NCBI GenBank assembly: GCA_005772855.1
Contig: SXIK01000044.1
Span: 1-32,780, forward strand
Source: Planctomycetia bacterium
GTDB lineage: Bacteria > Planctomycetota > UBA8108 > SXIK01
Direction of reading: 5' to 3'
DNA length: 32,780 bases
Positions 3,748 to 31,290 of the stretch are shown here, in pieces (within the stretch, counting starts at the first letter, position 1; every line of letters begins with the position of its first letter). The notes beneath the pieces were generated by a model, which made no database searches, had not been told where the DNA came from, and worked only from the letters and a program-made list of their open reading frames with translations. A program made the translations under genes and the position numbers.

Positions 3748-3763
3748 TGGACGCATCGCCACC

Positions 3764-4561
3764 ATGAAAAGTCTCCTCGCACTTGCGGGCGGCCAGGTTC
3801 TCGGTTTGTTTGACTATTTGGGTGGCCTCGTCCTCCTCTTGTGGGACAGCCTCTGGTGGATGACGCTCGGTCCGCTGAGACGCAGCGGCAGGCTCCGGGT
3901 GGATGAGACCTTCTACCAGATGGAGCGCCTTTGCGTACGGTCCTTCTGGATTGTGTCGCTCGTCATCTTCTTCGTCGGGATCATCCTGGCATTTCAGATG
4001 GCCTACGTGCTCCGCACTCTGGGCGTGACCGAGTACGTCGCCAATATCACCGGCGTTGCCATGACCCGCGAGATGGCTCCGCTCCTGGTGGCCATGGTCA
4101 TGACGGGTTACGCCGGGGCAGCGATCACCGCAGAGATTGGAACCATGGTTGTCTCCGAGGAGATCCTTGCCCTGGAGACGGGGGCCATGAACCCCGTCAG
4201 GTTTCTCGTTGTGCCTCGCGTACTCGCGGCGATGGCCGTGATGCCCTTCGTGACGCTGGTAGCGACCTACATTGGCATTCTGGGGGGCTTCTTCGTCGGA
4301 AATGTGCTGCTTGGGATCGAGGCCGAGAAGTACTTGAACCGTACTCTCGAGTCCCTCAAGTACAAGGATGTCTTCACCGGGCTCGTGAAGGCAGAGGCTT
4401 TCGGCGTGATCGTGGCCCTGATAGCCTGCCAGGAGGGGCTTCGGGTCACCGGTGGAGCCGAGGGGGTCGGACGAGCCACCACCAACTCGGTCGTCCGCTC
4501 CATCGTGGCCATCATTATCTGTGACATGTTCTTCACAGCCCTTTTTTACTACATGCTCTGA
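3764..4561 (+). CDS. mlaE: MlaE-family ABC transporter permease
   Basis: The 265-residue inner-membrane protein matches the MlaE/YrbE permease family. An amphipathic N-terminal region precedes a hydrophobic segment at about 65-90. The family-typical block NITGVAMTREMAPLLVAMVM with AGAAITAEIGTM (about 100-130) is followed by VLALETGAMNP-like and FLVVPRVLAAMAVMP elements and two further membrane spans. These proteins are the membrane part of lipid importers/exporters that move phospholipids or other lipids between membranes. The gene is followed by mlaF with a TGATG overlap and by mlaD. The length is typical for the family. It begins 16 bases after the STAS gene, so the two are very likely co-transcribed. 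Confidence 0.93.
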   Translation: MKSLLALAGGQVLGLFDYLGGLVLLLWDSLWWMTLGPLRRSGRLRVDETFYQMERLCVRSFWIVSLVIFFVGIILAFQMAYVLRTLGVTEYVANITGVAMTREMAPLLVAMVMTGYAGAAITAEIGTMVVSEEILALETGAMNPVRFLVVPRVLAAMAVMPFVTLVATYIGILGGFFVGNVLLGIEAEKYLNRTLESLKYKDVFTGLVKAEAFGVIVALIACQEGLRVTGGAEGVGRATTNSVVRSIVAIIICDMFFTALFYYML

Positions 4562-5406
4562 TGCAAGGCGCCCCCCCACAAGTGACCGCTCCCAGGAAGC
4601 GAAGGCGTCTGACCGACGAGGTCGTCATTGACGTACGAGACGTGCACGTCTCGTACGACGAGCGCTCCATCCTTGCGGGAATCAACCTGGTGGCCTATCG
4701 GGGCGAGATCCTCGTTATCATGGGCGGCTCCGGTTGTGGCAAGTCAACGCTCCTGAGGAGCATCGTCGGGGCCGAGGAGCCCCTGAAGGGCTCGGTCCAG
4801 ATGCTCGGTGAGGAGATCTACAAGCTCGAGGAGGCGCCCTTGAACACGCTCCGGAAGCGCTTTGGGATTCTCTTCCAGTCAGGCGCTCTCTACAACTCGA
4901 TGTCGGTGGGCGAGAATGTCGCACTGCCCCTCAGGGAGCACACCGACCTCGACGACGAAATCATTCGAATCATGGTCAAGATGAAGCTCGAACTCGTGGG
5001 CCTGAGGGACTTCGAAAATCTCCGGCCGGCTCAGATCTCGGGCGGCATGAAGAAGCGGGTCGGGCTGGCGAGAGCGCTGGCGCTCGATCCCGAAATCATC
5101 TTTTATGACGAGCCTGGCGCCGGGCTCGACCCTGTCGTCGCGGGTGTTATTGACAAGCTGATCATGGACCTCTCGCAAAAAGTAGGTGTCACGAGCATCG
5201 TCGTGACGCACGAGATGGGGAGCGCGTTCCGCATTGCCGACCGCATGATCATGCTCCATGAGGGCCGAGTGGTCGCCGAGGGCACCCCCGAGGAGATGCG
5301 CACCTCAACCCACCCGCTTGTGAAGCAGTTTATCAACGGCGAGCCCGACGGGCCAATCCCGCTACGGCGCTCCCGTATCGACTACGCCGAAGACCTCCTC
5401 GCCTGA
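4561..5406 (+). CDS. mlaF: MlaF-family ABC transporter ATPase
   Basis: The 281-residue ATPase has all ABC motifs: Walker A GGSGCGKST (about 55-63), Q-loop FQSGALYNSM (Gln106), signature ISGGMKKRVGLARAL (159-173), Walker B IIFYDEPGAGLDP (179-191) and the switch histidine in VVTHEMG (His217). The 'ISGGMKKR' signature and GAGLDP are typical of the MlaF branch, not of importers of small solutes. An N-terminal basic stretch (PRKRRR) precedes the domain. The ATG overlaps the mlaE stop (TGATG), giving tight translational coupling. It energises the MlaE permease; in known systems a STAS protein binds this subunit. The C-terminal tail of about 40 residues past the ABC core could be the contact surface. 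Confidence 0.95.
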   Translation: MQGAPPQVTAPRKRRRLTDEVVIDVRDVHVSYDERSILAGINLVAYRGEILVIMGGSGCGKSTLLRSIVGAEEPLKGSVQMLGEEIYKLEEAPLNTLRKRFGILFQSGALYNSMSVGENVALPLREHTDLDDEIIRIMVKMKLELVGLRDFENLRPAQISGGMKKRVGLARALALDPEIIFYDEPGAGLDPVVAGVIDKLIMDLSQKVGVTSIVVTHEMGSAFRIADRMIMLHEGRVVAEGTPEEMRTSTHPLVKQFINGEPDGPIPLRRSRIDYAEDLLA

Positions 5407-5421
5407 TGGAACGGACCCCCA

Positions 5422-6561
5422 ATGCCCCGAAAAAAGCGTAATGAAATTCTCGTGGGTGGCTTCGTAGCCGGCGCCACTCTCCTGTTCTTCCTGCTCCTCT
5501 TCCTCATGGGGTCGCTCGACAGCCTCCTGGTCTCATCCACCACGGTGGACGCAGATTTTGGCAATGTGCAAGGCCTGCAAGTCGGAGATCCGGTCTGGCT
5601 CTTCGGCAACAAGGTGGGAAAGGTGGCGGCAATCACGCTGCTTCCCAAGGAGCCTGGCAAGCGCGCCCAGGTCCGGGTGAGCCTGCGGATCCCCAGGGCA
5701 GCCTTCGAATATCTGCGCAAGGACTCGATTGTCAAGATTGACAAGCAGCTCACGGGCAATATCAGCGTCATTATCCAGGAGTCCGACGGCGAGCCTTTGC
5801 TGGATGGCGGTCGGCTCGCTGGAACGGCGACAGCCGACTTCGCCACCGTGACGCAGAAGGCGAGCAGCCTGCTCGAGGAGGCGCAGAACGTGGTTCGCAC
5901 GGTGTCAAGGCTCGTGGGCGAGATCGAGTCGAAAGGTGAAATCGAGAAGTCCCTCACGGCGGCAAGGGCCCTACTTGAAAACTTGAACACTCGCTTCGTC
6001 CCCCTCGGCGAGAAGCTCAGCACAGCGATGGAGCAGCTCCAGGGGATCCTCGATGAAAATCGCATCGACATCCGACACACCGTGGCCAACCTGCGCGAGA
6101 CTTCGGGCGCCGCCAAGGGCCTCCTGGAGAAGCTCGTGTCGACTCCCGAGCAGATCGCGCGAAGCCTGGACGAACTGGAGAAGGCGGGAGCCGCGATCGG
6201 CGGCCTCGTGAAGGAGAACCGTTCGAGCTTCGACATGATCGTCGGTGACCTGCGCCAGGTGATGACCAATGCCTCGAACCTCACGTCGGAGGTCAAACGA
6301 AGGCCCTGGCGCCTCCTCTACCGCCCCAACGAGGCGGAGCTCAAGGCCATGGACCTTTACGACGCTGCGTGGGCCTACAACCTGGGCGCAACCGAGCTCA
6401 ACCGTAGTATCCGCGACTTCACCTCGCGCCTTGAGGCTGACCCGGCGGGTGCAAAGCAGCCCGAGTTGCTGGAGGAGGCGAGACGACAGATGGCGCAAAG
6501 TCTGAGGCGTCACCGCGAGGCCGAAGAGCAGTTCTGGACGAGGCTCAAGGCCTCGCAATAG
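5422..6561 (+). CDS. mlaD: MCE-domain substrate-binding protein (MlaD-like)
   Basis: The 379-residue protein has a short cytoplasmic head (MPRKKRNE), one membrane anchor (about residues 9-31) and an MCE domain (about 40-120; DADFGNVQGLQVGDPVWLFG, then KVGKVAAI). A long helical, probably coiled-coil region follows (about 130-375), rich in Leu, Glu, Lys and Arg. MCE proteins form hexameric rings that pass lipids from the MlaEF complex into the periplasm. The extended C-terminal helical part may form a tube or needle, as in longer MCE proteins, instead of a plain MlaD ring. It follows mlaF by 15 bases. No MlaC or MlaA homologue was seen, so the periplasmic carrier and outer-membrane partner, if any, are elsewhere. 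Confidence 0.92.
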   Translation: MPRKKRNEILVGGFVAGATLLFFLLLFLMGSLDSLLVSSTTVDADFGNVQGLQVGDPVWLFGNKVGKVAAITLLPKEPGKRAQVRVSLRIPRAAFEYLRKDSIVKIDKQLTGNISVIIQESDGEPLLDGGRLAGTATADFATVTQKASSLLEEAQNVVRTVSRLVGEIESKGEIEKSLTAARALLENLNTRFVPLGEKLSTAMEQLQGILDENRIDIRHTVANLRETSGAAKGLLEKLVSTPEQIARSLDELEKAGAAIGGLVKENRSSFDMIVGDLRQVMTNASNLTSEVKRRPWRLLYRPNEAELKAMDLYDAAWAYNLGATELNRSIRDFTSRLEADPAGAKQPELLEEARRQMAQSLRRHREAEEQFWTRLKASQ

Positions 6562-10604: not shown

Positions 10605-13600
10605 ATGAATGGGTCGTCACGATTCACGCAGAAACCCGCGGCAGCCGGCGGCTTGAGTCGTTCTCTCCTGCGGCTAATGTTTTTGGCCCTGGGACTCATT
10701 GCCGCCCCGTCTCTCAACGCCGTGATCGTGATCTCGGAGATCCAGTACCACCCTCGAGGGAATGACTCCGAGCTCGAGTACATCGAGCTTCACAACGAGA
10801 CGCCGGATCCCATGGACCTGACCGGCTACTTTTTTTCAAGGGGCATAGATTTTACGTTCACGGACCGGACCTTCCTCGACCCGGGTGCCTACCTTGTCGT
10901 TTGCGCCAACAAGGACAGGATCGCCGCCGCGTACGGCATCACCAACGTCGTGGGGAATTGGTCCCCGGAGACTTCGCTGAAAAACTCGGGCGAATCGATC
11001 GAGCTCTCGAATCCGGCCGGCGTGGTGGAGGCGCGTGTGACCTACAATGATCGAGGAAAGTGGCCCTCGGGCGCCGACGGCACCGGGCACTCGCTCGAGC
11101 TCAAGGACGTCTACGCCGACATGGACGACCCGGACCACTGGGCCCTGAGCGGCAAGATGGGCGGTTCACCGGGCCAGCCGAACAACACCTTGCCTGGCGC
11201 AGTCTCGGTGGTCATCAATGAGGCCCTCCTGACGGGTAATTCGGGCGAACGGTGGATGGAGCTATACAACCACGGAAAGGACGACGTCGATCTCTCTGGT
11301 TTTCACGTTTCGAACAATCAAGACGACCTCAGCAGGGCCACGCTCGCGGCCGGAACGACCCTTGCCGCTGGCAAGTGGCTCGTCCTGAGCGACAGACTGA
11401 CCGGGCTCGACTTTGGCCCCGACAAGAGCGGGCGGTCCTTTCTCGCGCTCGTGAGCCCCACCGGTGATCGCGTGATCGACGCACGCACCTTCGAGCCGAA
11501 TACCCTCTACCCCGGCCTGAGCGAGGCCAGGATCCCGGACGGCGATTCCTTCTTTTCGAGCTCCGCCGACCCGACACCCAACGCGGCCAACCAGATCACG
11601 GTGCAATCCGATATCGTGATCAATGAGATCTTCTACCATCCGATCGATGGCGACCCGCGGGGGGAGTTCGTCGAGCTTTACAACCGTGGCTCGCAAGCGA
11701 TCGACCTGACAGGTTGGAGCGTCTCCGACGGCGTGCGCTTCGAATTCCCGGACGGAACCGTGGTCGACGGCCATGGTCACCTCGTCGTCGCCCGAGACCC
11801 TGCAAACATCCGGGCCGTCTACGGCCTTCCTGCCACGGCGGTGCTCGGCCCGCCAGATGACAGCGATGCACTCGATCGTTTCGGTACGTTGGCCGATTCG
11901 GGAGAACGAGTATCCATTTCTGATGCCCGAGGAAACATTGTCGACACGGTCCGCTACTTTGACGGCGGCGAGTGGCCCCGCTGGGCCGACGGCGGCGGCT
12001 CTTCCATGGAGCTCATTGACCCCAACCAGGACAACTCCTTCGCGCAGGCGTGGGATTCATCCGACGAGTCGCAAAAATCAGAGGCCACCCGGTACTCCTA
12101 CAAGGGCACGCTTTCGAGCAGCACCACTTTCGCAGACCCTCCGGAGTTCCACCTGGTGATGACGGGCTCAGGCATTACGGTCGTCGATGACCTCACCATG
12201 GTTTCCCGGGTGAGTACTTTTACGCCCGAGACGATTTATGTCACGAGCAATGACACGTGGAAGCTCAAGAAGGGCACGGAGGAGGCTTCCGTGCCGGTCA
12301 CGGCGTGGCGAGAGCTCGAGTATGACGACAGCGCCTGGACCGATGCGCAGGCGATTATTGGATTTGGTGAGTTCGACGAGACGACCGTTCTTGACGACAT
12401 GAGGAAGTTCGGCGTCAACCCGGGGTATGCCTCTTTCTTTGTTCGCAAGACCTTCCAGGTTGCCGACCTGGCAGCCTTGAAAGACCTCGTCCTCGAGATC
12501 CAGTATGACGATGGCTTCGTCGCCTATCTCAACGGCGTTGAGGTTGCTTCGGGCAACATGGACCTGAAGGATCGGGCATACAAGTCCCTGGCCTTGCTCG
12601 TCAGGGAGAAACAAAAAGACCTTGTCGACCTCGCGGCCTGGAAGCCTGTGTTGCGCGCCGGTCGCAACGTGCTCGCGATCCAGGTGCACAACCAATCGCT
12701 GGTCTCAAACGATGCCCGCTTTTCCGCGCAGCTCGCGAGTGGGACCATCAGCACCGAGGAGGGATCAAATTTGTTCAAGGATGGCTCGTTCGAGACCGTC
12801 CCCGACAAGCCAGCTTGGGTCCTGCAGGGTACCCACGTTCGCTCCGGCCGCACGACCGCCGAGGCAATCTCCGGCGAGGGATCGCTCAAGATTGTTTCCA
12901 CTGGCGGCGGCGACAACAAGGTGAACCGAATCGAAACCTCCAACACGGGCCTCACGGCCCCCAGGGTGAGGACTGTCTACGATATTTCGTTTTTGGCGAA
13001 ATGGATTTGTGGTACGCCAACTCTCCTGACGCACGGCTCTTATCAGGGCTCGGACCCACCGAGCTACGCCGCCTCGACCCCACTGATGGTGCCGAGAAAT
13101 CTGGGCACTCCAGGCGCTCCCAACAGCGTCACGCTGCGTCAAGTCGCCGAGACCGGCTCGAGTAGTAACCTCGGTCCCGTGATCAAGCAGGTGAAACATG
13201 CGCCCTCGCTCCCGGCAGCGAATGAGGCCGTGACGATCGAAGCGCGCATTTACGACCCCGACGGGGTGTCGAGCGCAGTGGTCAAGTACAGCCTGGATAC
13301 GCCGAAGGTCCCGGGTGACCCGGCGCTCCTCGAAGTGCCCATGACCGATGAAGACGGCGACGGCGTCTACACGGCACAGATTCCGGGCCAGGCCCTCAAG
13401 AAGAAGGTTGTCTACTGCATCGTGGCCAGGGACTCAAGAGGTCAGTTGGGCCGTTGGCCGCTTGACCACGTCCACAGAACGAACCCGCTCATCCTCGATC
13501 CTTCTCTGGCAGGTGCCAACGACGACCAGTACGCCGTCTACCGCCATGACACCCCCTTTGCGGGCAAGCCACAATCCTTCCGTTTCTGGATGCACGGTGC

Positions 13601-15539
13601 CAACGAGCAGTACCTCTCCTCGCGGCCGCTCCACTCAAACGACCTTGTCGCTGGCACTCTATTGTTCCAATCCCGCGACGTTTATTACAACGCCGGAATC
13701 CGCTTCTCCGGGAGCCCTTTTGCTCGTCAAGCCTGGACGGAGAGTTACCGCATGCGGCTGCCAAAAGACAATCCGCTACAGGGTACGATCGAGAGTTTCA
13801 ACATGGAGGACCACCAGGATGGCGGCGCCGTTTCCGCCAAGGAGCGGATCTCGAATTACCTCCTGCGTTGGCATCAGGGACAGACCATTGGTCCCTACTC
13901 GCTCCAGTGGTACGTTCAGTTGCAGGTGAACGATCGGGTCAACGAGCTTCGGGAGCTGGTCCAAACACCCAACGCGGAGTTCATTGGCCGCTGGTGGCCC
14001 GGGGACGACCGAGGGTCTTTCTTTGAAATGGATGATCGTCACACCTTTACCGACGATGGCAGTCGTGAGAACTCGGTGGACGCAGTGCTCCTCTACCCCC
14101 CCTACGGCGCTTCTGGCCTGGGCGGTGACAAGGAGCAGTACCGCCACTACTTCAATCTGCGTCTCAAGGAGGAGGAAGATGACTTCTCCGAGCTGATCAA
14201 ACTGGCGAGACTCTTGACAACCTCCCAGACTCCCGACAACGAGTTTGATCGGCTGGTGTGGGATCAAGTCGACGTCGAATCGTTTTGCCGTTACTGGTCG
14301 ATCCGCATGAACACCGACGACTGGGATTGCTGGGGCACGAATCGCGGCAAGAACTGCTATCTTTACCGGCCCGAGGGTGCCGGCAAGTGGTACCTGATTC
14401 CGTGGGATATGGAGCTGACCTACACGAATTCGTCATCTTTTCTTCCGCCCGCGTTGACGGCAACTTCAAATTCCACTTATCTGAACACCTTCGCGGAGGT
14501 GACCCGCTTCATCAATCGCCCGCGGATCAAGCGCCTCTACTATGGCATCCTGAAGGAGATGATTGACAGACAGTTTCAATCATCCTTCCTGCTCCCTTAC
14601 ATGCAGAAACTGGATGCGGTGGGCGCCCAGTGGACCGATATCGGCAAGCCAAAGGGGTTCATCGATACTCGACGCAAGATGCTGCAAACGGTCGTCAAGG
14701 GAGTCACGATGCCCACGATCAGCTTCACCATCACGACCAACGGCGGCCAGCCCCTTGAGATTGAGTGGACACAGCTTGAGCTCAAGGGCAAGGCGCCCGT
14801 GGAGATTCGGGATATCGTCGTGAGGATCGACGGCAAGGACCCCACACCGCCGTGGAGAGTCGAGTTCTCCTCCACGGACCTTCTCGGCTGGACAGTCAGT
14901 GGCAGCTTGAGCCTTGGGGAGCACACAGTCGAGCTCGTCGGATTCACCAGTGACCTTGCGGTTGTGGCCTCCACTTCGATCACCGTGACCGTATTGCCCG
15001 CCGTCCCACCCGTCATCTCCGCAGTGACACCGCTCAAGGCGGTTGTGGGCGAGCTCGTGACGATCACCGGGACAGGATTCAGGGCAACTTCCAGGGTGCT
15101 CTTCGGCGAAGTCCAGGCCGCGCAGGTGACCTTCAACCCTGAAGCGAGCCAACAGATTGTGGCCGCGGTCCCCGCGGGTGTTCCGCTCGAAATGGTCGAG
15201 GTGCGCGTGGAGAACCTTGGAGGGATTCAATCGGATCCCTTCGCAATTCAGGTGGTCGCAGAAAAGAAACGATTCCTTCGTGGTGACAGCGATCGAAGCG
15301 GCCAGGTGAATCTGACGGACGCCCTTTACTCGCTGGATTTCCTCTTCCAGCAAGGCCAACTACCGCTCTGCATGGACGCCGGCGACGTGGATGACGACGG
15401 CAGCTTGAACATCACCGACGCGATCGTTCTCCTGCGATTCCTTTTCCAGGGAGGCGCTCAGCCGCCGGCCCCGTTTCCCGAGGTAGCTGAGGATCCGACT
15501 CCACTCGACCCGCTCACCTGCGCAATCGGTGTCGAGTAG
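10605..15539 (+). CDS. Giant secreted lamin-tail / CotH / dockerin-like protein
   Basis: The 1644-residue product has an N-terminal signal peptide (about 1-38, ending APSLNA). Three lamin-tail domains follow, each starting near a 'VI[SN]E' strand (about 39-165, 200-300 and 337-465; for example SEIQYHP and INEIFYHP). Next is a jelly-roll-like region (about 547-703, ELEYDDSAW and GFGEFDE), a putative carbohydrate-binding region (about 722-842), an Ig-like strand domain (about 858-966) and a CotH domain (about 975-1365; includes WDCWGTNRGKNCYLY and LIPWDMELTY). An IPT/TIG domain (about 1467-1552) and a dockerin-like tail (about 1557-1644, RGDSDRSGQVNLTDAL and DVDDDGSLNITDAI) complete it. CotH is a kinase-like fold known to phosphorylate spore-coat proteins; activity here is untested. 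The C-terminal tandem calcium-loop module is a planctomycete hallmark, probably a surface or secretion tag. Confidence 0.9.
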   Translation: MNGSSRFTQKPAAAGGLSRSLLRLMFLALGLIAAPSLNAVIVISEIQYHPRGNDSELEYIELHNETPDPMDLTGYFFSRGIDFTFTDRTFLDPGAYLVVCANKDRIAAAYGITNVVGNWSPETSLKNSGESIELSNPAGVVEARVTYNDRGKWPSGADGTGHSLELKDVYADMDDPDHWALSGKMGGSPGQPNNTLPGAVSVVINEALLTGNSGERWMELYNHGKDDVDLSGFHVSNNQDDLSRATLAAGTTLAAGKWLVLSDRLTGLDFGPDKSGRSFLALVSPTGDRVIDARTFEPNTLYPGLSEARIPDGDSFFSSSADPTPNAANQITVQSDIVINEIFYHPIDGDPRGEFVELYNRGSQAIDLTGWSVSDGVRFEFPDGTVVDGHGHLVVARDPANIRAVYGLPATAVLGPPDDSDALDRFGTLADSGERVSISDARGNIVDTVRYFDGGEWPRWADGGGSSMELIDPNQDNSFAQAWDSSDESQKSEATRYSYKGTLSSSTTFADPPEFHLVMTGSGITVVDDLTMVSRVSTFTPETIYVTSNDTWKLKKGTEEASVPVTAWRELEYDDSAWTDAQAIIGFGEFDETTVLDDMRKFGVNPGYASFFVRKTFQVADLAALKDLVLEIQYDDGFVAYLNGVEVASGNMDLKDRAYKSLALLVREKQKDLVDLAAWKPVLRAGRNVLAIQVHNQSLVSNDARFSAQLASGTISTEEGSNLFKDGSFETVPDKPAWVLQGTHVRSGRTTAEAISGEGSLKIVSTGGGDNKVNRIETSNTGLTAPRVRTVYDISFLAKWICGTPTLLTHGSYQGSDPPSYAASTPLMVPRNLGTPGAPNSVTLRQVAETGSSSNLGPVIKQVKHAPSLPAANEAVTIEARIYDPDGVSSAVVKYSLDTPKVPGDPALLEVPMTDEDGDGVYTAQIPGQALKKKVVYCIVARDSRGQLGRWPLDHVHRTNPLILDPSLAGANDDQYAVYRHDTPFAGKPQSFRFWMHGANEQYLSSRPLHSNDLVAGTLLFQSRDVYYNAGIRFSGSPFARQAWTESYRMRLPKDNPLQGTIESFNMEDHQDGGAVSAKERISNYLLRWHQGQTIGPYSLQWYVQLQVNDRVNELRELVQTPNAEFIGRWWPGDDRGSFFEMDDRHTFTDDGSRENSVDAVLLYPPYGASGLGGDKEQYRHYFNLRLKEEEDDFSELIKLARLLTTSQTPDNEFDRLVWDQVDVESFCRYWSIRMNTDDWDCWGTNRGKNCYLYRPEGAGKWYLIPWDMELTYTNSSSFLPPALTATSNSTYLNTFAEVTRFINRPRIKRLYYGILKEMIDRQFQSSFLLPYMQKLDAVGAQWTDIGKPKGFIDTRRKMLQTVVKGVTMPTISFTITTNGGQPLEIEWTQLELKGKAPVEIRDIVVRIDGKDPTPPWRVEFSSTDLLGWTVSGSLSLGEHTVELVGFTSDLAVVASTSITVTVLPAVPPVISAVTPLKAVVGELVTITGTGFRATSRVLFGEVQAAQVTFNPEASQQIVAAVPAGVPLEMVEVRVENLGGIQSDPFAIQVVAEKKRFLRGDSDRSGQVNLTDALYSLDFLFQQGQLPLCMDAGDVDDDGSLNITDAIVLLRFLFQGGAQPPAPFPEVAEDPTPLDPLTCAIGVE

Positions 15540-15605: not shown

Positions 15606-16673
15606 TCAACGGGTCGTTAGCCGAACGGGTCGGCCTTCTCGCGCAGACTTGTAAATTGCACAGATCACCTCCACGGAGCCCCTGGCATCAAGACCCGAGC
15701 AGCAGGGTTGCGTACCCGTCTGGACGGCCCGCACGAAGTCCTCGAACTGCCTCCGGTGCCCTTCGAACGAGATGCCCCTCGGGTCCGCCGCACCGCCGTC
15801 CGGGAGGCCCTCCCGTGGTCCGTGTTTCCTGCGGATCTCCTCGTCCTGTGGCTCTTCGGTGTCGAACTTCCACGTGACGATGACGTCGTCCTCAAGGACC
15901 GCCGTTCCCTTCGAGCCGCAGACCTCCAGTCGCATCTTTGCACCCGGCCAGGCGCCCGTGGTCCCCTCGATCGAACCCAGCGCCCCGTTGTGGAAGCGCA
16001 CGGCTACCGTGGCGGTGTCTTCGACCTCGATCCGTTCGTGGGCAAGGGTTGAAGTGAAGGCCGAAACCTCTGCCACCCCCCCGAGGCACCACTGGAGAAG
16101 GTCGATTCCGTGGATTCCCTGATTCATGAGGACGCCGCCCCCGTCGAGCTTCCACGTGCCCCGCCAGACGCCCGTGTCGTAATACTCCTGGGTTCGGAAC
16201 CACTTGATGTGGACATCCCCGAGTACGATGCGGCCAAAACGCCCCCGGTCGATCGCCTGCTTCAGGGCGCGGCTGGACTCCTGAAACCTTCTCGGGAAAA
16301 TCGCCCCGAGAAGCACCCCCGCCTTCTGGCACGCCGCGATGATTTGATCCACGCGCTCGGGAGTGATTTCGAGCGGCTTTTCGACAATGACGTGCTTTGA
16401 GGCCCGCGCGGCCAGAAGCGCGATCTCCAGGTGAGCGCCGCTCGGAGTGCAGATCGAAACGCAATCGACCTCGCTCGAAGCCAGCAGGTCCTCGAGGCGC
16501 TCAAAGGCCGGCGCCCCGAACTGCCGGGCTCGCCTGTGGGCGGACTCGGGGGTGCGATTGTAAAAGCCCGCAAGCCGGGCTCCGCCGAGTGCCTGAATGG
16601 CCTGGCTCTGAAACTCGCTGATCATCCCGCAGCCGACAATGGCGATGCCGAGGGGGCTTGCGTTATTTTTCAC
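15606..16673 (-). CDS. Gfo/Idh/MocA family NAD(P)-dependent oxidoreductase
   Basis: The 355-residue product has a Rossmann N-terminal domain (IAIVGCGMIS, about 10-19). The family-typical KHVIVEKP follows (EKP at 98-100), then the C-terminal alpha/beta domain with GGGVLMNQGIHGIDLLQW (His188 and Asp191, positions usually catalytic or substrate-binding). Members oxidise or reduce sugars, inositols or related polyols. The precise substrate cannot be told from sequence. Starts at GTG 16673, reading away from the lipoprotein operon that begins at 16850. Ends 66 bases from the end of the giant secreted protein, so the two are convergent. Gfo/Idh/MocA genes are very numerous in planctomycetes, so its presence here carries little functional context. 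Confidence 0.92.
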   Translation of the reverse strand: MKNNASPLGIAIVGCGMISEFQSQAIQALGGARLAGFYNRTPESAHRRARQFGAPAFERLEDLLASSEVDCVSICTPSGAHLEIALLAARASKHVIVEKPLEITPERVDQIIAACQKAGVLLGAIFPRRFQESSRALKQAIDRGRFGRIVLGDVHIKWFRTQEYYDTGVWRGTWKLDGGGVLMNQGIHGIDLLQWCLGGVAEVSAFTSTLAHERIEVEDTATVAVRFHNGALGSIEGTTGAWPGAKMRLEVCGSKGTAVLEDDVIVTWKFDTEEPQDEEIRRKHGPREGLPDGGAADPRGISFEGHRRQFEDFVRAVQTGTQPCCSGLDARGSVEVICAIYKSAREGRPVRLTTR

Positions 16674-16849: not shown

Positions 16850-17419
16850 ATGCGTAAACTCCTCTCAGCACCATCTCTTCTCGCCCTGCTCTGGGCCCTG
16901 CTCCCGGGTTGCTCCGGCGTCGCGGTCACCTCAAACCCGGCGCTTCGAAACCCCACGGACACGACCAGCACCGTGGGTGGCACGGACGACATTTACGACT
17001 CCACGCAACAGGCGATTCGTTCGCTACTCCTGAGCGAGAACGTTCGCCAGCACCTCGAGGCGAAGAAGGGAAACCGCGTTGTCCTGAACAAGGTCCTCAA
17101 TGAGACCGGCATTCCGGGCTACGATGAGACGATTATTTATAACCGTCTACTCGCCGGCCTCATCAACAACTCGGGCGGTCGCTTCATCTTCCTCAAGCGC
17201 GACGGTGGAACAAAACGGGAGCGAGACCTTCAACTCTCGGGCCAGGTGAAGTCGAGCGGCGTGGATGCGGTCCCCGCTGGAGCGGACATGATCCTTGACT
17301 TGCAGCTCCGGCAGATCTCGAGCCCCAAGTCGAAGGCCATCCAGTACACTTTCTCGCTCACAAACCTTGCGGACGAGATCCTCTGGTCCGACAGCTTCGA
17401 GATCCAGAAAAGGACCTGA
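16850..17419 (+). CDS. lpoB: LpoB-family lipoprotein (PBP activator-like)
   Basis: The 189-residue product has a lipoprotein signal (residues 1-21, lipobox LPGC). The mature part resembles the LpoB family: an N-terminal flexible stretch, then NRVVLNKVLNETG, DETIIYNRLLAGLINNSGGRFIFLKR and a C-terminal GADMILDLQLRQISSPKS..QYTFSLTNLADEILWSDSFE. In E. coli, outer-membrane LpoB reaches through peptidoglycan to activate PBP1b; that role here is unproven. The ATG at 16850 was chosen because AAGGA lies 11 bases upstream and it gives a clean signal peptide; the upstream in-frame ATG at 16766 would add 28 residues before it. First gene of a six-gene lipoprotein operon. A 176-bp divergent region separates it from the oxidoreductase gene. 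Confidence 0.8.
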   Translation: MRKLLSAPSLLALLWALLPGCSGVAVTSNPALRNPTDTTSTVGGTDDIYDSTQQAIRSLLLSENVRQHLEAKKGNRVVLNKVLNETGIPGYDETIIYNRLLAGLINNSGGRFIFLKRDGGTKRERDLQLSGQVKSSGVDAVPAGADMILDLQLRQISSPKSKAIQYTFSLTNLADEILWSDSFEIQKRT

Positions 17420-17432
17420 CCCCCAGGCGAGG

Positions 17433-18029
17433 ATGCCGATTCTCCCCCACAGCACGCAGGTCCGCCGTTGTCTCCAGCTTGTCCTGGCAGCCCTGGCGAT
17501 GAGTTGCGCAAGTGCTTCCACTCAAGGCCTTCTCGACCCGGACGCCATTGGCACGGACCAGGGCACGCTGGTGTCCCTCGGGGACATTCGGTCGGTGGCG
17601 ACGGAGATGGTCCAATCCATGAATGCCAGCACGACTCTGGGTCGCATCAGGGCGGAGCAGAAGCCCGTTCGCGTGCTCGTCGGCCATTTCAAGCAGCGCA
17701 CGAGTATCGCAATCTTTGACAAGGATCTGTTCGTGAACCGTGTTCTCGCCAGTCTCCTCAATGCAGACACGAGCGGTGCCTATGCCTTCATCCGGCGGGG
17801 GTCGGTGCCCGCCGAGGATGCCCGTGAGCTTTCCACGGGCGCCGATTTGATCCTGACCGGCGAGGTTCGTGAGCTCCTTCATCGGGAGGCCACGCCCCGG
17901 GGGGGTGAGCTCGAGCGGCGCACGGTGCAATACACGCTGGCCGTCACGCGCGTCTCGGACGACGCAATCATCTGGACAGACTCGAAGGAAGTTGTGAAGC
18001 AGCAAATCACGGGAGCGGTCTACCGGTGA
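17433..18029 (+). CDS. Second LpoB-like lipoprotein
   Basis: The 198-residue product starts 13 bases after the first LpoB-like gene. It has a signal sequence (residues 1-25; LAMSC, a weak lipobox with Ala at -3). The mature part follows the same plan as the previous protein: RVLVGHFKQRTSIAIFDKDLFVN, RVLASLLNADTSGAYAFIRRG, then GADLILTGEVRELLHRE and QYTLAVTRVSDDAIIWTDSKE. The shared GAD-[LM]-IL and 'W(T/S)DS' elements mark the two as tandem paralogues. The earlier in-frame start at 17295 lies inside the first gene and is rejected. The GTG start of the next gene overlaps this stop as GTGA. Confidence 0.75.
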   Translation: MPILPHSTQVRRCLQLVLAALAMSCASASTQGLLDPDAIGTDQGTLVSLGDIRSVATEMVQSMNASTTLGRIRAEQKPVRVLVGHFKQRTSIAIFDKDLFVNRVLASLLNADTSGAYAFIRRGSVPAEDARELSTGADLILTGEVRELLHREATPRGGELERRTVQYTLAVTRVSDDAIIWTDSKEVVKQQITGAVYR

Positions 18030-19378
18030 CTTGCCGCCACTCACCCGGCCATGGCGCATGGATCAGCCTACTGGCAGCCGCCATCTCCGGTTGCGCCGCT
18101 CGGTACTACGACACCGCCGATGACGGCTACTGGCGTAACGATGCGGGCTCGATGGTTGAGGCGTACCGGAGTGCTGTGGACGACACGGGCCCCAACGCCC
18201 TCCTGGGCGTCGAGCGACTCCTGAGCGCCGCTCTGCTGCAAAATGACTGGAGGACCGCGGAGGCTCTTGCGGTTCGCGCATCCACGCTCTGCAACATCTT
18301 CGTGGCCGACGAGGGCGGCGAGCGCGATGCGATCTCGTTCTTCGGTCAGGAGAAGGACAAGCCGTTCAAGGGCGAACCGCACGAACGGGTCATGGTCGAC
18401 CTCTACCTTGGCCTCCTGCGCTTTCAGAAGCAGGACTTCGAGGGGGCTCTCTCGGCCTTCAGGTCTGCCATGAACAAGGACCGTGGCTCCTACTGGATTC
18501 CGGTTGAGCGGCATCTTGCGAAAAGAGGCTCGGACAACGCAGACCGATATCTGTTCGAGGACGACTGGCCGCTCCTCCAGATCCTCTGCGCCAAGTGCCA
18601 TCAGCTCCTGGACGAACCCGAAGAAGCAAGAAAATACTTCGAACGCGCCTCGACCACTTTGCCCGTAATGAAGCCGCTCTTCGAGGATCTGCTCGACCCC
18701 GAGACGAACGTCCTCGTGATTGTCGAGAGCGGCCGGGCGCCCTTGAAGCGGAAAACCGGCCCCCACGGCGCCGAGCTGGGCTACGTGCAAGGGCCGCGAG
18801 CGACGGTGGACGGCGTCTGGTTGGGCGAGAGCGAGCTCTCGACCGGCACTTGCGAGGATCTCCACTACCAGGCGACGACTGTCGGTGGACGCGAGGTCGA
18901 CAAACTGAACCAACTCAAGGCCGAGCGTCGTGAGGTTCTCCAGGCGGCCGGCTTTACCACCGCGGTTGCAGGCTACATGCTGCTTGCGGCAGGCTCCGGC
19001 GGCCACCGAAGAGCCGACCGAAACATCCAGATGGCCGGTCTCTTCGCGCTGGCAGCCGGAATCGCCGCCATGATCATCGCCGACCTGGTGATCGACCCCA
19101 GCGCAGACGTGCGCTCGTGGGCCACCCTGCCCGGCCAGATCAGCCTTGCGGTCGGTCGTGCGATGCCGGGTGGGCGCGCTCGCCTCTTGGTTCGAGGCCG
19201 AGGCGACGTACAGGATCTCTCGCAGGAGTGGCTGGATGTACCTGTCGAAAAGGGCATGAATCTGTACTGGACTCGTCTTCTACCCGGAAGGAAAGGCGGG
19301 TCCTGGGAGCAGCCGCGCGAGGACCAGGTGGATGGCCACGGCAAAGCTCCCAATGAGAATGAATTTAACTCGAACTGA
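18026..19378 (+). CDS. COG3014-like lipoprotein with TPR region
   Basis: The 450-residue product has a lipoprotein signal (residues 1-23, lipobox ISGC) and an alpha-helical, TPR-like N-terminal half (about 40-225). Recognisable parts are NALLGVERLLSAALLQNDWRTA, VDLYLGLLRFQKQDFEGALS and PEEARKYFERAS. The second half contains VLVIVESGRAPLKR and a glycine/alanine-rich hydrophobic hairpin (about 315-355; AGYMLLAAGSGG and GLFALAAGIAAMIIADLVID). This arrangement fits COG3014, an uncharacterised family commonly found next to lpoB and ycfL genes. Begins with GTG overlapping the previous stop. Functions are unknown; envelope biogenesis is the usual inference from context. Confidence 0.75.
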   Translation: MTCRHSPGHGAWISLLAAAISGCAARYYDTADDGYWRNDAGSMVEAYRSAVDDTGPNALLGVERLLSAALLQNDWRTAEALAVRASTLCNIFVADEGGERDAISFFGQEKDKPFKGEPHERVMVDLYLGLLRFQKQDFEGALSAFRSAMNKDRGSYWIPVERHLAKRGSDNADRYLFEDDWPLLQILCAKCHQLLDEPEEARKYFERASTTLPVMKPLFEDLLDPETNVLVIVESGRAPLKRKTGPHGAELGYVQGPRATVDGVWLGESELSTGTCEDLHYQATTVGGREVDKLNQLKAERREVLQAAGFTTAVAGYMLLAAGSGGHRRADRNIQMAGLFALAAGIAAMIIADLVIDPSADVRSWATLPGQISLAVGRAMPGGRARLLVRGRGDVQDLSQEWLDVPVEKGMNLYWTRLLPGRKGGSWEQPREDQVDGHGKAPNENEFNSN

Positions 19379-19390
19379 CTCGTCCCCAAG

Positions 19391-19397
19391 AAAGGAG
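19391..19397 (+). promoter_or_regulatory. Ribosome binding site deciding the YcfL-like start
   Basis: AAAGGAG lies 6 bases before the ATG at 19404. It rules out the earlier in-frame start at 19332, which lies within the preceding gene. Confidence 0.75.
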
Positions 19398-19403
19398 CTC
19401 CAA

Positions 19404-19811
19404 ATGCAATTGAAGTTTACACGCGCAGGGTTCGGGCTGACCCTCCTGGTACTTTCGGCTTGCGAATCGCCTGGCCCCGTTTCTCCGAATCTGACCGATT
19501 CACCCCAGACCGCAGTCACTCTTTCGAGCGATCTCAAGGAAGTGCTGGCGGTTCCAAACATCCAGGGTCCTCAAATCTACACGTACACTGCCGATGGTCT
19601 GCTTCAGTACCAGTTCCAGCTTCAAAACAACTCGGATCAAGGGTTCTTCATTCAAGTCCGGCCGACCTTTTTCGACGACCAGGGAGTGGCTGTCGACAAC
19701 CCTCCTCCCTTCCGCGAAGCGTTTGCTGCGCAGGAGATCAAGACCCTTCGCGTCGTTTGCGGCAACAATCGAGGCCGCCGTGTGCGTGTTCAGATCTCGC
19801 CAGCCCGCTGA
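19404..19811 (+). CDS. YcfL / DUF1425-like lipoprotein
   Basis: The 135-residue product has a lipoprotein signal (residues 1-20, lipobox LSAC) and a small beta-rich domain. Its core is LQYQFQLQNNSDQGFFIQVRPTFFD followed by FREAFAAQEIKTLRV. A 'polypeptide strand with NNS, then wide pause, then strand' pattern fits DUF1425/YcfL, a family usually encoded next to lpoB in Gammaproteobacteria. The ATG is preceded by AAAGGAG at the ideal distance. Function unknown; conservation of linkage to LpoB suggests a role in cell-envelope synthesis. The stop TGA overlaps an ATG (TGATG) that could start the next gene, although a later GTG has the better ribosome site. Confidence 0.7.
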   Translation: MQLKFTRAGFGLTLLVLSACESPGPVSPNLTDSPQTAVTLSSDLKEVLAVPNIQGPQIYTYTADGLLQYQFQLQNNSDQGFFIQVRPTFFDDQGVAVDNPPPFREAFAAQEIKTLRVVCGNNRGRRVRVQISPAR

Positions 19812-19840
19812 TGTCATCCGCAACAAGGAGTCCTCACCCC

Positions 19841-20869
19841 GTGCCTGTTTTTCGCCGCATCTCGTCTCGTACCAGCCATGCTCTCTTCGTTCCCACCCTG
19901 GCCTTCCTCGTCGGTTGCTCGACGGGATTGCCTGTAATTGAGCCAGCGCCGCCGCCCCCTCCTCGAGCCGAGCCCCCCCCGGTGAATCAGTTCGCCATCT
20001 TTGACGCGAAGGAGCCGGAGGCTCCGCCGCTCGCCCAGCTTCCCCTGCCCGCGAGGAAAGTCGCCGTGCTCGTGCGGGAAACGGTCAGCGGCCGGACGAC
20101 GGCGGAAGACACGGCGTCCGAGGCTGTCGTTGCGAATGCGCTCCTGGCAGGAAGGGTCGTTGAACCCGGGGATCTCTCCCGCCCGCCGCTTCCGCGGATC
20201 GAGGTCTTGAATCGGTCGGTCTACGAGAAGACGATCGGTCGCGACCTCAAGGCTCTACTGACACGCCGCGAGGACGTGAGCGCCGAGGTGCTCAGGAATC
20301 TTTCGGACGTGGGTTGCGAGTTGCTTGCGATGGGCGAGGTGACGATCGAAAGCAGCGACCCTGCGGTCGTCGGCAAGGAGATCCGCGACATGAGCCACCT
20401 CGTGCAGGCCAACGTGAGCCTGATCAGGGTCGACGATGCCGTGACACTCGGGAGCGGAACGGCCACCGCCCGCAAGCCAGTGGCGGTCGACGCCAAGCGA
20501 GACGCGCTCGAGAAAGCAACTGACGACGCACTCAGGAGCTTTTACGAATACCGCGATGTTCCAGCATCCCAGGTGGTGCTCACCGTCGAAGGTCTTCGCT
20601 CGGAAGCCGAGGCGGCAAGGGTCGAGAAGGCCCTCCAGTCCACGAAGGGCGTGCTCTGGGTGAAGGATGTGCGCTTCCAGCTCGGCCCCGAGGGAACTCC
20701 GTCGAGCACGGCGAGGTTTGATGTCGGCTGGAGCGGCAAGTCGGACGATCTCAAGCAGATCTTGCGAGAATGGGACCTGGGCTTTCGACTGGCGGGCACG
20801 AAGATCGAAGGGAACCGATGGACGTTCCGTGCGCAGCAGAACCCCGCGGGCGAGGAGGAGAAAAAATGA
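19841..20869 (+). CDS. Lipoprotein with Pro-rich linker, paralogue A
   Basis: The 342-residue product begins at a GTG with AAGGAG 10 bases upstream (19825-19830), giving a clean signal (residues 1-26, lipobox LVGC). The ATG at 19811, coupled to the previous stop, is the alternative. Directly after the cysteine comes a linker containing PVIEPAPPPPPRAEPPP. The globular part contains KVAVLVRETVSGRTTAEDTA, LLAMGEVTIES, VQANVSLIRVDDAVTLGSGT and DALEKATDDALRSFYEYRD. The 'novel strand then ALEKATDDA' style is reminiscent of the CsgG/FlgT/LPP20-type lipoproteins, but no firm family match is possible by eye. A sister of the next gene. The Pro linker probably lets the domain reach across the periplasm or peptidoglycan. 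Confidence 0.65.
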   Translation: MPVFRRISSRTSHALFVPTLAFLVGCSTGLPVIEPAPPPPPRAEPPPVNQFAIFDAKEPEAPPLAQLPLPARKVAVLVRETVSGRTTAEDTASEAVVANALLAGRVVEPGDLSRPPLPRIEVLNRSVYEKTIGRDLKALLTRREDVSAEVLRNLSDVGCELLAMGEVTIESSDPAVVGKEIRDMSHLVQANVSLIRVDDAVTLGSGTATARKPVAVDAKRDALEKATDDALRSFYEYRDVPASQVVLTVEGLRSEAEAARVEKALQSTKGVLWVKDVRFQLGPEGTPSSTARFDVGWSGKSDDLKQILREWDLGFRLAGTKIEGNRWTFRAQQNPAGEEEKK

Positions 20870-21762
20870 GACCTTGCCGACTCCCGAGCAACTATCTTTC
20901 GTTGCTCCTGGTCCGTTTTTCGGGTGCGGTCACTCTTGCGAGCCTCATCGCTGCGTGCGAGAGCACGCTCCCCGTGATCGAGTCACCGCCACCTCCCCCA
21001 CCTCGAGTGACGGGTGAAGGATCAGGGCCGCTTGCGAGCCCGCCTCCGGGTCGAACGATCGGCACCTTGCCGCAGATGCCGGTGCCTCGCTTCGCTGTCA
21101 GCCTTTTTGCGTTCCCGCAGACGGGCTCTGCAACGGAGGCTGCCTACTCCCCCGAGTGGTCGTCCCGTGTTGTGACCCGACTGGACCTGAATCACGTGAC
21201 AGCTCTTGCGCTTTCCCGGAGCACCCTCCCTGCGGGGGACCTCGAGCAAGCCACGGCGGCACTCGTCGAGCAGTCGGGCGCAGGAGTGGCCGATGTTCTC
21301 CTTGCTGGCACCATCCTCCCGGGCAATAACACACAGGTCCGTCTCTTCGCCAGGGACACCCGGGACGGCCGCCTCATTGCCCGCAGCGAGTTCGAGGGCA
21401 AGGCCGACACAACTCTGTCCATCGCCACCGATGACGCCTTCGCCCAGGTAAATCGCTACTGGTTCGAGCTCGCCCGGGGGCAGCTCTCGCATCTCCGCAT
21501 GGAAGTGAAGGGGCTTCGCACCGACCCCGAGATTGGACTCCTGCAGGGCTCGCTCGTGATGGTCCCCGGTGTGCGGGCAGTGCGCCACGAGGAGACCCGT
21601 GTGGAACGTGAGGAGGCTCAGGCTGCCTTTCGTCTGACCCACGAGGGCGTGCCCGAGGTGGTCCTCGATGGTATTGCCAGGCTGACGTGGGTAGCAGGCG
21701 GAAAGACTGCGCGGCTCGAGCACGTCGAGGGCTTCACGTTCCACGCCCGGTACGTGGATTGA
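20866..21762 (+). CDS. Lipoprotein with Pro-rich linker, paralogue B
   Basis: The 298-residue product starts at an ATG overlapping the previous stop (ATGA), with GAGGAGG upstream. It has a lipoprotein signal (residues 1-31, lipobox IAAC). The residues after Cys, STLPVIESPPPPPPR, match those of the previous protein almost exactly. The globular part has FAVSLFAFPQTGSATEAA, GVADVLLAGTILPGNNTQV, TDDAFAQVNRYWFEL and LRMEVKGLRTDPEIGL, the last lining up with VLTVEGLRSEAEAAR of paralogue A. The two are therefore tandem duplicates that have diverged. Last gene of the six-gene lipoprotein run. It ends 37 bases from the convergent DUF971 gene. Confidence 0.65.
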   Translation: MRPCRLPSNYLSLLLVRFSGAVTLASLIAACESTLPVIESPPPPPPRVTGEGSGPLASPPPGRTIGTLPQMPVPRFAVSLFAFPQTGSATEAAYSPEWSSRVVTRLDLNHVTALALSRSTLPAGDLEQATAALVEQSGAGVADVLLAGTILPGNNTQVRLFARDTRDGRLIARSEFEGKADTTLSIATDDAFAQVNRYWFELARGQLSHLRMEVKGLRTDPEIGLLQGSLVMVPGVRAVRHEETRVEREEAQAAFRLTHEGVPEVVLDGIARLTWVAGGKTARLEHVEGFTFHARYVD

Positions 21763-21799: not shown

Positions 21800-22144
21800 T
21801 CAACTCCCAGGGCTCTCGCCGGAAGCTGCCTTCACACATTCCCCGCAAGGACAGATCGCTCGCAAGTGGTCGAAGCTGTAAATACCGCTCGAGTGACCAT
21901 CGGACCACGCGAAGTGAAGCGCGTAACGGCCGACGGGCTCGATGCGGACAGGCTTCACATCCTCGGGGACCGCTTCCGGCCGGAGGGTACGCTCTCCGGT
22001 CCACTCGTCCACGCACGCGGCGCAACGGCAGGATCTCCGCAGGTACACAACCGGGTAAGTGCTCACGTGGCCGTCTGTCCACGTGATCTCGAGGTCCTTC
22101 GGTCCAACCTGGCGCATGTTCGTTGGGGAAACCTTCTCTGCCAT
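21800..22144 (-). CDS. DUF971 domain protein
   Basis: The 114-residue product is a single DUF971 domain: LEITWTDGHVSTYPVVYLRR, then CRCAAC (Cys39, 41, 44), later LHFAWSDGHSSGIYSFDHLR and CPCGEC (Cys98, 100, 103). The domain is also found at the N-terminus of gamma-butyrobetaine hydroxylase-like enzymes. The clustered cysteines suggest metal binding. Starts at ATG 22144, four bases after the Mrp stop. DUF971 and Mrp genes are often neighbours or fused, suggesting a joint role in iron-sulfur metabolism (inference from the family's usual context). A longer frame (to 22423) inside the Mrp gene is rejected. Confidence 0.88.
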   Translation of the reverse strand: MAEKVSPTNMRQVGPKDLEITWTDGHVSTYPVVYLRRSCRCAACVDEWTGERTLRPEAVPEDVKPVRIEPVGRYALHFAWSDGHSSGIYSFDHLRAICPCGECVKAASGESPGS

Positions 22145-22148
22145 GGGG

Positions 22149-23270
22149 TCACTTCCAATCGATCGGACCCGGCATGATGGGCGCATGCGGCAAGCTCTTT
22201 CCGCCCGACTCGGCCAACATGGAGAGCTGTGCGGCCACCTGCCTCGCGAAGGCTGTGTAGGCCTGTGCGGCAGGAGAATCCGGTTTTTCGCGAACGATGG
22301 GGTTCCCCAGATCTCCACCCACCGGCACCGAGGGATCGATCGGGATCTCCCCCAGGAACGGCACGCCCAACTCCTCGCTCGTCTTCTTGCCTCCTCCGTG
22401 CCGGAAAATCTCGGTGCGTTCACCGCAGTGAGGGCACAGAAAGTAGCTCATGTTTTCTACAATCCCGAGGACAGGCACGCGAAGCTGCCGGAACATGAGG
22501 AGGCCCTTGCGGGCGTCAAGCAGGCTCACATCCTGCGGCGTCGTAACGATCACGGCGCCGGAGAGAGCGATCGCCTGTGAAATCGACAGCTGTGCATCCC
22601 CTGTACCCGGAGGAAGATCGACTACCAGGTAGTCAAGCTCGCCCCAGGCAGAGTCGCGCACGAGCTGCTGGATCGCCCCGTGCACCATCGGCCCGCGCCA
22701 GATGACCGGCGTATCAGGCCCCGAAAGGAATCCCATCGAGATCACCTTGATGCCGTGGGCATCGATCGGGACGATCTTGCGGTCCTCGGTTACCTCGGGC
22801 CGACTGTTGATCCCAAACATCATGGCCATGCTGGGCCCGTGGATGTCAGCGTCAAAGAGGCCAACGCGGGCGCCTGAAACCTTCAGCGCCATGGCCAGGT
22901 TCGCCGCTGTTGTGGACTTGCCAACGCCGCCCTTGCCGCTGGCGACTGCAATGATGTTCTTGACGCCCTGGAGCACCGCAGTGGCGGCACCGACGTTCAT
23001 GCGGCGGACCTGGGCGGTCATTTCGATGTCGACCTGCTCGACGCCGACGATGGCACTGACCTTCTGATGGCACTCTGCCTTGAGCTGCTCCTTGACCGGG
23101 CAGGCGGGCGTCGTGAGCTCGACCTTGAAGCTTACCTTGCCCCCTTCAATCTTGAGCTCCTTGATGAAGCCAAGGGAAACAATGTCCCGGTGCAAATCGG
23201 GATCTTCAACCGTCCTCAAGGCTTCGAGGATCTTGCTCTCATCGACCGTCTTCTTCGCGCGTCCAAACAT
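22149..23270 (-). CDS. mrp: Mrp/NBP35-type iron-sulfur carrier ATPase
   Basis: The 373-residue product has an N-terminal MIP18/DUF59 domain (about 12-90; LRTVEDPDLHRDIVSLGFIK, ACPVKEQL). The P-loop ATPase domain follows with the deviant Walker A GKGGVGKST (112-120), ADIHGPSM and DLPPGTGDAQLS (about 218-230). A CPHC motif (Cys279, Cys282) is the Fe-S binding pair found in this family, and IPIDPSVPVGGDLGNP closes the domain. Members bind and pass on [4Fe-4S] clusters to apoproteins. Length and motifs are typical. The gene is followed directly by DUF971, and faces a UbiD-family gene on the other strand across about 225 bases. Confidence 0.95.
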   Translation of the reverse strand: MFGRAKKTVDESKILEALRTVEDPDLHRDIVSLGFIKELKIEGGKVSFKVELTTPACPVKEQLKAECHQKVSAIVGVEQVDIEMTAQVRRMNVGAATAVLQGVKNIIAVASGKGGVGKSTTAANLAMALKVSGARVGLFDADIHGPSMAMMFGINSRPEVTEDRKIVPIDAHGIKVISMGFLSGPDTPVIWRGPMVHGAIQQLVRDSAWGELDYLVVDLPPGTGDAQLSISQAIALSGAVIVTTPQDVSLLDARKGLLMFRQLRVPVLGIVENMSYFLCPHCGERTEIFRHGGGKKTSEELGVPFLGEIPIDPSVPVGGDLGNPIVREKPDSPAAQAYTAFARQVAAQLSMLAESGGKSLPHAPIMPGPIDWK

Positions 23271-29736: not shown

Positions 29737-31290
29737 CTACCGCTCGGGCGGGGGGGCTGTGCCGTTGAAGTAGGACTCGTACTTTGGCCAGCTGTAGTCT
29801 GCGACTTTGCGACCCAGAATCAGGCCTACATCATTGTCCGTGCGTATGTGGTAACCGCCCCAAAGACGTGAGACGGCGGCCATCTCCGCAGTGGCGGTGA
29901 ACGTGGGCAGATCCAGGCGAACTTCCTTGGATTCCGGGACGTTTTCGGCTGGCTTACCATCAACCGCCTGCATTTGAGACGTGGAGAATTCGTCTTCGGT
30001 CAGCATCCCCACCCTGCGGATGGAGATTGCTCCGAAACGGTCGCTGCCGGTGAAGTGTTCCAAAATCCGTGCCGCACTTCCGCTGGCCGTGGCATGACCG
30101 GACGGGTAACCGGGAAATGGAGGCGTGACGAAGGTGTCCGGTGAGTAGGGGTGCCACTTATCAGCCGCGAGGGACGCCACGCCCTTCCCCGGTCCCGCCC
30201 AACCGCGTACTTGCTTGCCAGGGTAGTACATCCGCACCCACCAGTAGGGACGCGAGGTGTCGTAAAATCGCTTCGTCTCCCAGCTGGCGATGAACGCATC
30301 AAACACGATATTCGAAACTGAAAAGAAGAGCTTCACGTCTTGGTCCAGGCCGTAATGGTCGCGGCGTGAGACGTCCTGGGCAAAGCGCAGCCAGTGCCCC
30401 GATTGCCCCGTGGAACGGGGTCCGTCACGCATGAACTCGACAACGGCTTTCTGCTCGAGCGTGAGGTTTGCGTTGAACTCGATGCACTCGTCGACCTCTT
30501 TCTTGAGCTGCGCCGAGCCCCACAAGGGCGGTGGGCCGGGACGGAACTGGTCCCCACGTTCCAGCGCGAAGGGCTTGACACGATACCAGTGCGCTGTGAG
30601 GAAGCCGGGCGAGAATGTGCCCCCCTTGCCGTCGTTGAACGGAATGGGCATCCAGCAGGTCTCGTCCAGGCACTTGTCCGGTTTGTTGATCGGGCGGTAA
30701 AACGTGTAGTCCTCATAGGGTTTTCCGTTTCCGCCTGGCTCGTCTCCCAACTGGTTCGCCCCGTCGTGGTGGCGATGAGCAATGACCGCAGCCGCCGCGA
30801 CGTTGCCCACCCCCGCAGGTGTTGTGATGTCCTTGGTATTGTTATCGGGGTCAAATCCCATCTTTTGCATTTGGCCCCGGAGCCAGACCGCGTCTTCCGC
30901 ATAGACGTCGGTCAAGGAACGGTAGGCGGCATAAGCGATCGCCGTCTCCTTGTTGGCTTGGGTCCGCTCGGCCAGTGGTCGGCGCAGTTTTTCTCCCAGC
31001 CGCGTGCCAACCGCCTTGGCGTCGTAGGCGGCCCAGGCGTCATACATTGAGGTCAGGACGATCGCCATTGTCCGGGAAAGAATTGTTGGTCGTGCCCTAT
31101 TGCGGTCCACATCACGGCCGCTGGCTTCCAGGGTGATTTCCAACCACTGATAGGCTGCAGTTGGGTTGGGATTGGGCGCCTGATGGATCAACTCCGCCGT
31201 GGTTGTCTGTCGTTCGTCTGCCCTTCCACGGGCGAGCGACAAGAGTCCAGCACCTGTCACCAAGAGCAGCAGTAAACCGCGACGATTCAT
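29737..31290 (-). CDS. Vanadium-dependent haloperoxidase (PAP2 superfamily)
   Basis: The 517-residue exported protein (signal peptide about 1-24, ending LARGRA) carries the vanadate-binding residues of this family at the right spacing: Lys340 and Arg347 (KRFYDTSRP, seven apart), Ser397-Gly398-His399 (YPSGHATASG) and Arg475 with His481 (SRLWGGYHIRTD, six apart). The CiVCPO enzyme has the same spacings. Such enzymes oxidise halides with hydrogen peroxide or, in the acid phosphatase branch, remove phosphate. The ATG is preceded by AAGGA about 8 bases upstream. The gene follows the 12-residue-repeat protein on the same strand. It sits between element copies R3 and R4. Halide versus phosphate activity cannot be told here. 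Confidence 0.92.
   Translation of the reverse strand: MNRRGLLLLLVTGAGLLSLARGRADERQTTTAELIHQAPNPNPTAAYQWLEITLEASGRDVDRNRARPTILSRTMAIVLTSMYDAWAAYDAKAVGTRLGEKLRRPLAERTQANKETAIAYAAYRSLTDVYAEDAVWLRGQMQKMGFDPDNNTKDITTPAGVGNVAAAAVIAHRHHDGANQLGDEPGGNGKPYEDYTFYRPINKPDKCLDETCWMPIPFNDGKGGTFSPGFLTAHWYRVKPFALERGDQFRPGPPPLWGSAQLKKEVDECIEFNANLTLEQKAVVEFMRDGPRSTGQSGHWLRFAQDVSRRDHYGLDQDVKLFFSVSNIVFDAFIASWETKRFYDTSRPYWWVRMYYPGKQVRGWAGPGKGVASLAADKWHPYSPDTFVTPPFPGYPSGHATASGSAARILEHFTGSDRFGAISIRRVGMLTEDEFSTSQMQAVDGKPAENVPESKEVRLDLPTFTATAEMAAVSRLWGGYHIRTDNDVGLILGRKVADYSWPKYESYFNGTAPPPER

Follow-up and report, generated by a model that had tools for sequence, protein, structure and literature searches.

The window, by which we mean the whole 32,780-nucleotide stretch of planctomycete DNA that was analysed, contains a tight operon of six consecutive plus-strand open reading frames, named A to F in this work (Table 1). 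The junctions A/B, B/C, C/D, D/E and E/F were 13, -4, 25, -1 and -4 bases, in agreement with a preliminary description of this DNA in which most junctions were said to overlap or to be shorter than 30 bases. The operon was taken to comprise these six genes only, because the genes on both sides are encoded on the opposite strand. A promoter and terminator scan gave no signal above that of shuffled sequences.

Table 1. Coordinates of the operon, of other features in the window and of selected loci in other genomes.
Feature	Position	Strand	Description
Mla-type cluster	window 3007-6561	+	STAS-MlaE-ABC ATPase-MlaD (Mla-type lipid transport), ~10 kb upstream of the operon
1644-aa protein	window 10605-15539	+	lamin-tail-like and dockerin-like stretches by eye
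Upstream flanking gene	window 15606-16673	-	
Operon A to F	window 16850-21762	+	six consecutive open reading frames
Gene A	window 16850..17419	+	189 aa, LpoB-family (PF13036) predicted lipoprotein, short Pro-poor linker
Gene B	window 17433..18029	+	198 aa, second LpoB-family predicted lipoprotein
Gene C	window 18026..19378	+	450 aa, GTG start, COG3014-like predicted lipoprotein, TPR region
Gene D	window 19404..19811	+	135 aa, YcfL/DUF1425-like predicted lipoprotein
Gene E	window 19811..20869	+	352 aa, predicted lipoprotein, no Pfam/NCBIfam family
Gene F	window 20866..21762	+	298 aa, predicted lipoprotein, architecture as in E
Downstream flanking gene	window ~21800-22160	-	DUF971-like by eye
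517-aa protein	window 29737-31290	-	matches to DUF6851 and a vanadium chloroperoxidase (PAP2-superfamily) domain
Sphingomonas/Marinobacter plasmid cassettes	L104 3065-6443; L105 1-2045 with L106 3366-4466		LpoB-COG3014-YcfL and a ~275-aa gene with no assigned family
Glycine-zipper predicted lipoproteins	L047 8999-9496; L049 9482-9910; L046 6313-7086		Pro-rich linkers; directly after YcfL

All six products begin with a hydrophobic signal that terminates in a lipobox-type Cys according to a home-made rule, and the run of six predicted lipoprotein genes that had been noticed earlier was thereby recovered in full. The lipoboxes were LLPGC, LAMSC, AISGC, VLSAC, FLVGC and LIAAC for A to F, with an atypical residue at position -2 in A (Pro; LPGC) and B (Met; AMSC). 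When the same rule was applied to neighbouring genes outside the family, 26 of 307 (8.5%) were positive. The run of six is therefore far beyond chance, with a probability of approx. 4e-7 if independence is assumed. On the basis of the lipoboxes we infer that all six products would be lipidated.

The proteins A and B, which had been described as LpoB-like, both passed the cut-off of the Pfam LpoB family (PF13036; 22.3 bits) over the full-length profile, although narrowly, with 23.5 bits for A and 29.4 bits for B. The equivalog model TIGR02722, which represents LpoB as PBP1B activator, was not reached by either protein (27.6 bits for A and 27.2 bits for B against a cut-off of 110.55). The score of D against PF07233 (DUF1425) was 25.0 bits, just below the cut-off of 28.3, and one planctomycete homologue exceeded this cut-off. 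These weak Pfam scores are backed by profiles built from the planctomycete loci, because the planctomycete LpoB HMM recovered E. coli LpoB at 4.8e-12 and the HMM seeded with D recovered E. coli YcfL at 1.5e-10. The earlier mention of a YcfL-like member was supported in this way, as was that of two LpoB-like proteins. In a tree of LpoB sequences A and B were sisters with a clade support of 100/99, to be read with caution on account of long branches.

C has no named Pfam family. It gave a TPR_2 match of 2.5e-05, below the Pfam cut-off, and has one internal hydrophobic segment at residues ~334-359. It is homologous to the protein encoded between LpoB and YcfL in Marinobacter, Sphingomonas and other loci. 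Against solved structures, the COG3014-like profile retrieved designed proteins, TPRs and chance matches only, and the LpoB profile retrieved only an ABC-transport auxiliary lipoprotein (0.0035). We regard the homology of A to D as shown. To our knowledge both YcfL and COG3014 are uncharacterised, and our literature search found no mention of COG3014.

The last two genes had been announced as additional paralogues with Pro-rich linkers, and this was borne out. Homology between E and F was detected by sequence comparison (BLASTP 3e-4; hhalign probability 96.5%, E=9.7e-10), and their linkers contain ~30% Pro compared to 2-4% Pro after the Cys in A and B. In E, the lipobox Cys36 is followed by the Pro-rich linker (~37-80), a domain of predicted LpoB/PelC/CsgG fold (~82-248) and a C-terminal beta-alpha-beta domain (~253-342), and F has the same architecture. 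Neither protein gave a significant Pfam or NCBIfam match. Membership of the LpoB family by sequence was considered and rejected, as there was no match to Pfam LpoB and hhalign found both proteins unrelated to the planctomycete LpoB, YcfL and COG3014 profiles, with 1-6% for the LpoB profile. AlphaFold2 models were built from two-sequence alignments and reached moderate confidence (pLDDT 69 for E and 70 for F). In both models a middle alpha/beta domain and the C-terminal beta-alpha-beta domain were seen. The nearest Foldseek neighbours of E were the LPHT ring, PelC, CsgG, FlgT and GNA1162 (target TM up to 0.64, for PelC), and those of F were TolB, PelC, LpoB and GNA1162 (target TM up to 0.44, for LpoB); E-values ranged from 4e-6 to 1e-3, with a probability of ~1.0 for the top matches. 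The TolB-N/LpoB/PelC/CsgG fold is therefore predicted for the middle domain of both E and F, and according to the models the same broad fold is probably present in four of the six products (A, B, E and F).

Searches of 392 planctomycete genomes placed the operon in a wider context. LpoB was found adjacent to COG3014 in 54 genomes, that of the window included, and COG3014-like matches, many of them weak, occurred in 101. The order LpoB-COG3014-YcfL is conserved across many planctomycete families, and LpoB-LpoB-COG3014-YcfL and LpoB-COG3014-YcfL-LpoB were also among the observed arrangements. The doubled LpoB was rejected as a feature unique to the window, since two copies are present in several other families; in the LpoB tree, which calls for long-branch caution, those pairs derive from a separate and older duplication than A/B. 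The combined E and F profile gave clear matches in only two of the 392 genomes, other matches being short and marginal. These two are the window's own genome and a groundwater Planctomycetota MAG of the same family (G001), in which the end of C is followed by D, E and F in the window order, with E 48% and F 40% identical and with the downstream opposite-strand gene kept. The affiliation of this relative agrees with the planctomycete origin given in the preliminary description. By these profile matches only E and F are lineage-specific within the operon.

The same core order was also found outside the phylum, on one Sphingomonas and one Marinobacter plasmid (alpha- and gammaproteobacteria). The Marinobacter cassette agrees with the earlier statement that a related locus exists in Gammaproteobacteria. 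The fourth, ~275-aa gene of these plasmid cassettes was tried as a relative of E and F and rejected, as no relation could be detected. In Sphingomonas, the signal peptides of the LpoB and YcfL homologues lack a lipobox, which means that the cassette does not depend on lipidation. Shortly downstream of the cassette on the Marinobacter plasmid are Flp pilus genes. In E. coli, the glycine-zipper-family gene ycfJ (PF05433) is located a few genes from lpoB. We concluded that the core LpoB-COG3014-YcfL is not new and that the window holds an expanded form of a known, uncharacterised cassette.

The structural neighbours of E invite the idea that E and F, perhaps joined by A and B, assemble into an oligomeric outer-membrane ring like PelC, CsgG or the flagellar LP-ring, which exports or anchors a surface polymer or appendage. 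The best structural matches of E, namely the LPHT ring, PelC (a dodecamer) and CsgG, do indeed form rings, and the pilus genes next to the Marinobacter cassette would fit. However, the fold also occurs in proteins that are monomeric or form no ring (TolB, LpoB). Next to the window operon we saw no genes for secretion, polymers or pili, and the other planctomycete neighbourhoods had no consistent export genes. We consider a ring of this kind rather unlikely. A module for envelope stress or outer-membrane maintenance, acting as a sensor or tether and unrelated to wall synthesis, seems doubtful to a similar degree. The patchy and plasmid-borne distribution in Proteobacteria suggests an accessory role, and some of the planctomycete loci continue after YcfL with a glycine-zipper lipoprotein, but no conserved regulator or stress-response gene was seen beside the locus.

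The preliminary description had connected the locus to the activation of cell-wall synthases, and had proposed that co-occurrence with PBP1-type synthases be checked across planctomycetes. Such a role, in which a PBP1-type (class A) synthase of peptidoglycan is activated by A and B in the way that PBP1B is by LpoB in E. coli, would be in line with the PF13036 assignment of A and B and with the YcfL neighbour known from E. coli ycfL-lpoB. The genome data did not support it. No match to GT51 (PF00912), the class A PBP domain, was obtained in the window's own assembly, which is 96.3% complete. This absence could be an assembly gap, because G001, which thus has both the locus and the domain, and most other members of the window's order carry GT51. 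Among the 392 planctomycete genomes GT51 was present in 52, and no association with the locus was detected (Fisher p=0.39, phylogeny not corrected): of the 54 locus-positive genomes nine had GT51 and 45 lacked it. The latter include several that are at least 97% complete (G215, G235, G245, G255, G343, G391, G083 and G149). It has been reported that planctomycetes can be without class A PBPs (PMC8406291).

The docking site of LpoB on PBP1B is the UB2H domain (PMC3060616, PMC9593243). No UB2H match was found in the window's genome, and elsewhere the domain was matched only in frames of 1141-1213 aa located away from PBPs, whose size suggests Mfd. Typas et al. placed the co-evolution of LpoB and UB2H in enterobacteria (PMC3060616). 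Together with the large distance of A and B from the TIGR02722 cut-off, we regard these observations as having largely refuted class A PBP activation for the phylum, and for A and B themselves it appears very improbable. In the literature we found no description of LpoB-family loci persisting in planctomycetes without class A PBPs.

Other parts of the wall machinery were present. The window's assembly gave two class B-type transpeptidase matches and two FtsW/RodA matches. FtsW/RodA was near-universal in the genomes tested, and MreB, which was considered as a discriminating correlate, was rejected with a presence in 391 of 392 genomes. Neither therefore discriminates the locus-positive genomes.

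The reading we favour, at roughly even odds (about 0.5), is that the operon is a lineage-specific expansion of the widespread LpoB-COG3014-YcfL cassette, and that it encodes an outer-membrane-anchored lipoprotein complex acting without a class A PBP. The six lipidated products would for the most part sit at the periplasmic side of the outer membrane and assemble into a single complex. In this complex the TPR protein C could serve as scaffold with D (YcfL) as its partner, while the short-linker LpoB-fold subunits A and B would stay near the membrane and the Pro-linker LpoB-fold subunits E and F would extend inward. The complex may then act on an inner-membrane or wall-level partner other than a class A PBP, for which RodA/FtsW-class B PBP pairs would be the most natural candidates. 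For the process served, we infer regulation of SEDS-class B PBP synthesis, a PelC/CsgG-like ring and outer-membrane maintenance as candidates. A more far-reaching proposal, which we put forward as speculation, is that planctomycete LpoB-family proteins belong to an old outer-membrane LpoB-COG3014-YcfL complex controlling SEDS-class B PBP synthesis, or another envelope process, without a class A PBP. Activation of PBP1B in enterobacteria would then be a later re-use, and E and F would be two gained LpoB-fold arms reaching into the periplasm.

LpoB is known from enterobacteria, as a PBP1B activator that evolved recently. As the syntenic cassette occurs across Planctomycetota and most of the genomes that carry it lack class A PBPs, the label "PBP activator LpoB" is probably misleading for the planctomycete proteins, and the LpoB family probably has another, perhaps older, role. 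Such genomes also offer a PBP1B-free background in which the roles of YcfL and COG3014 can be tested.

Compared to known systems, the E. coli ycfL-lpoB locus, which encodes the PBP1B activator, belongs to the same sequence families as A, B and D, and the genes are likewise adjacent. It differs in that no COG3014-like gene is present there and in that ycfL precedes lpoB, whereas in the window LpoB comes first and YcfL is last of the core. The E. coli LpoB-PBP1B pair also contrasts with the window's genome, where neither a class A PBP nor a PBP-linked UB2H was detected. E. coli LpoB reaches PBP1B with an unstructured N-terminus of 54 aa (PMC9593243), while A and B have no long Pro-rich linker. 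The other planctomycete cassettes and those of the Sphingomonas and Marinobacter plasmids share the core gene order of the window. In the planctomycete ones E and F are missing, with nothing, a second LpoB or a glycine-zipper lipoprotein in their stead, and in the plasmid ones the ~275-aa protein is found and E and F are missing. The lipoproteins and domains of the TolB N-domain, PelC, CsgG and GNA1162 type resemble E and F in the predicted fold of the middle domain, with no detectable sequence relation, and compared to them E and F add the C-terminal beta-alpha-beta domain and the Pro-rich linker.
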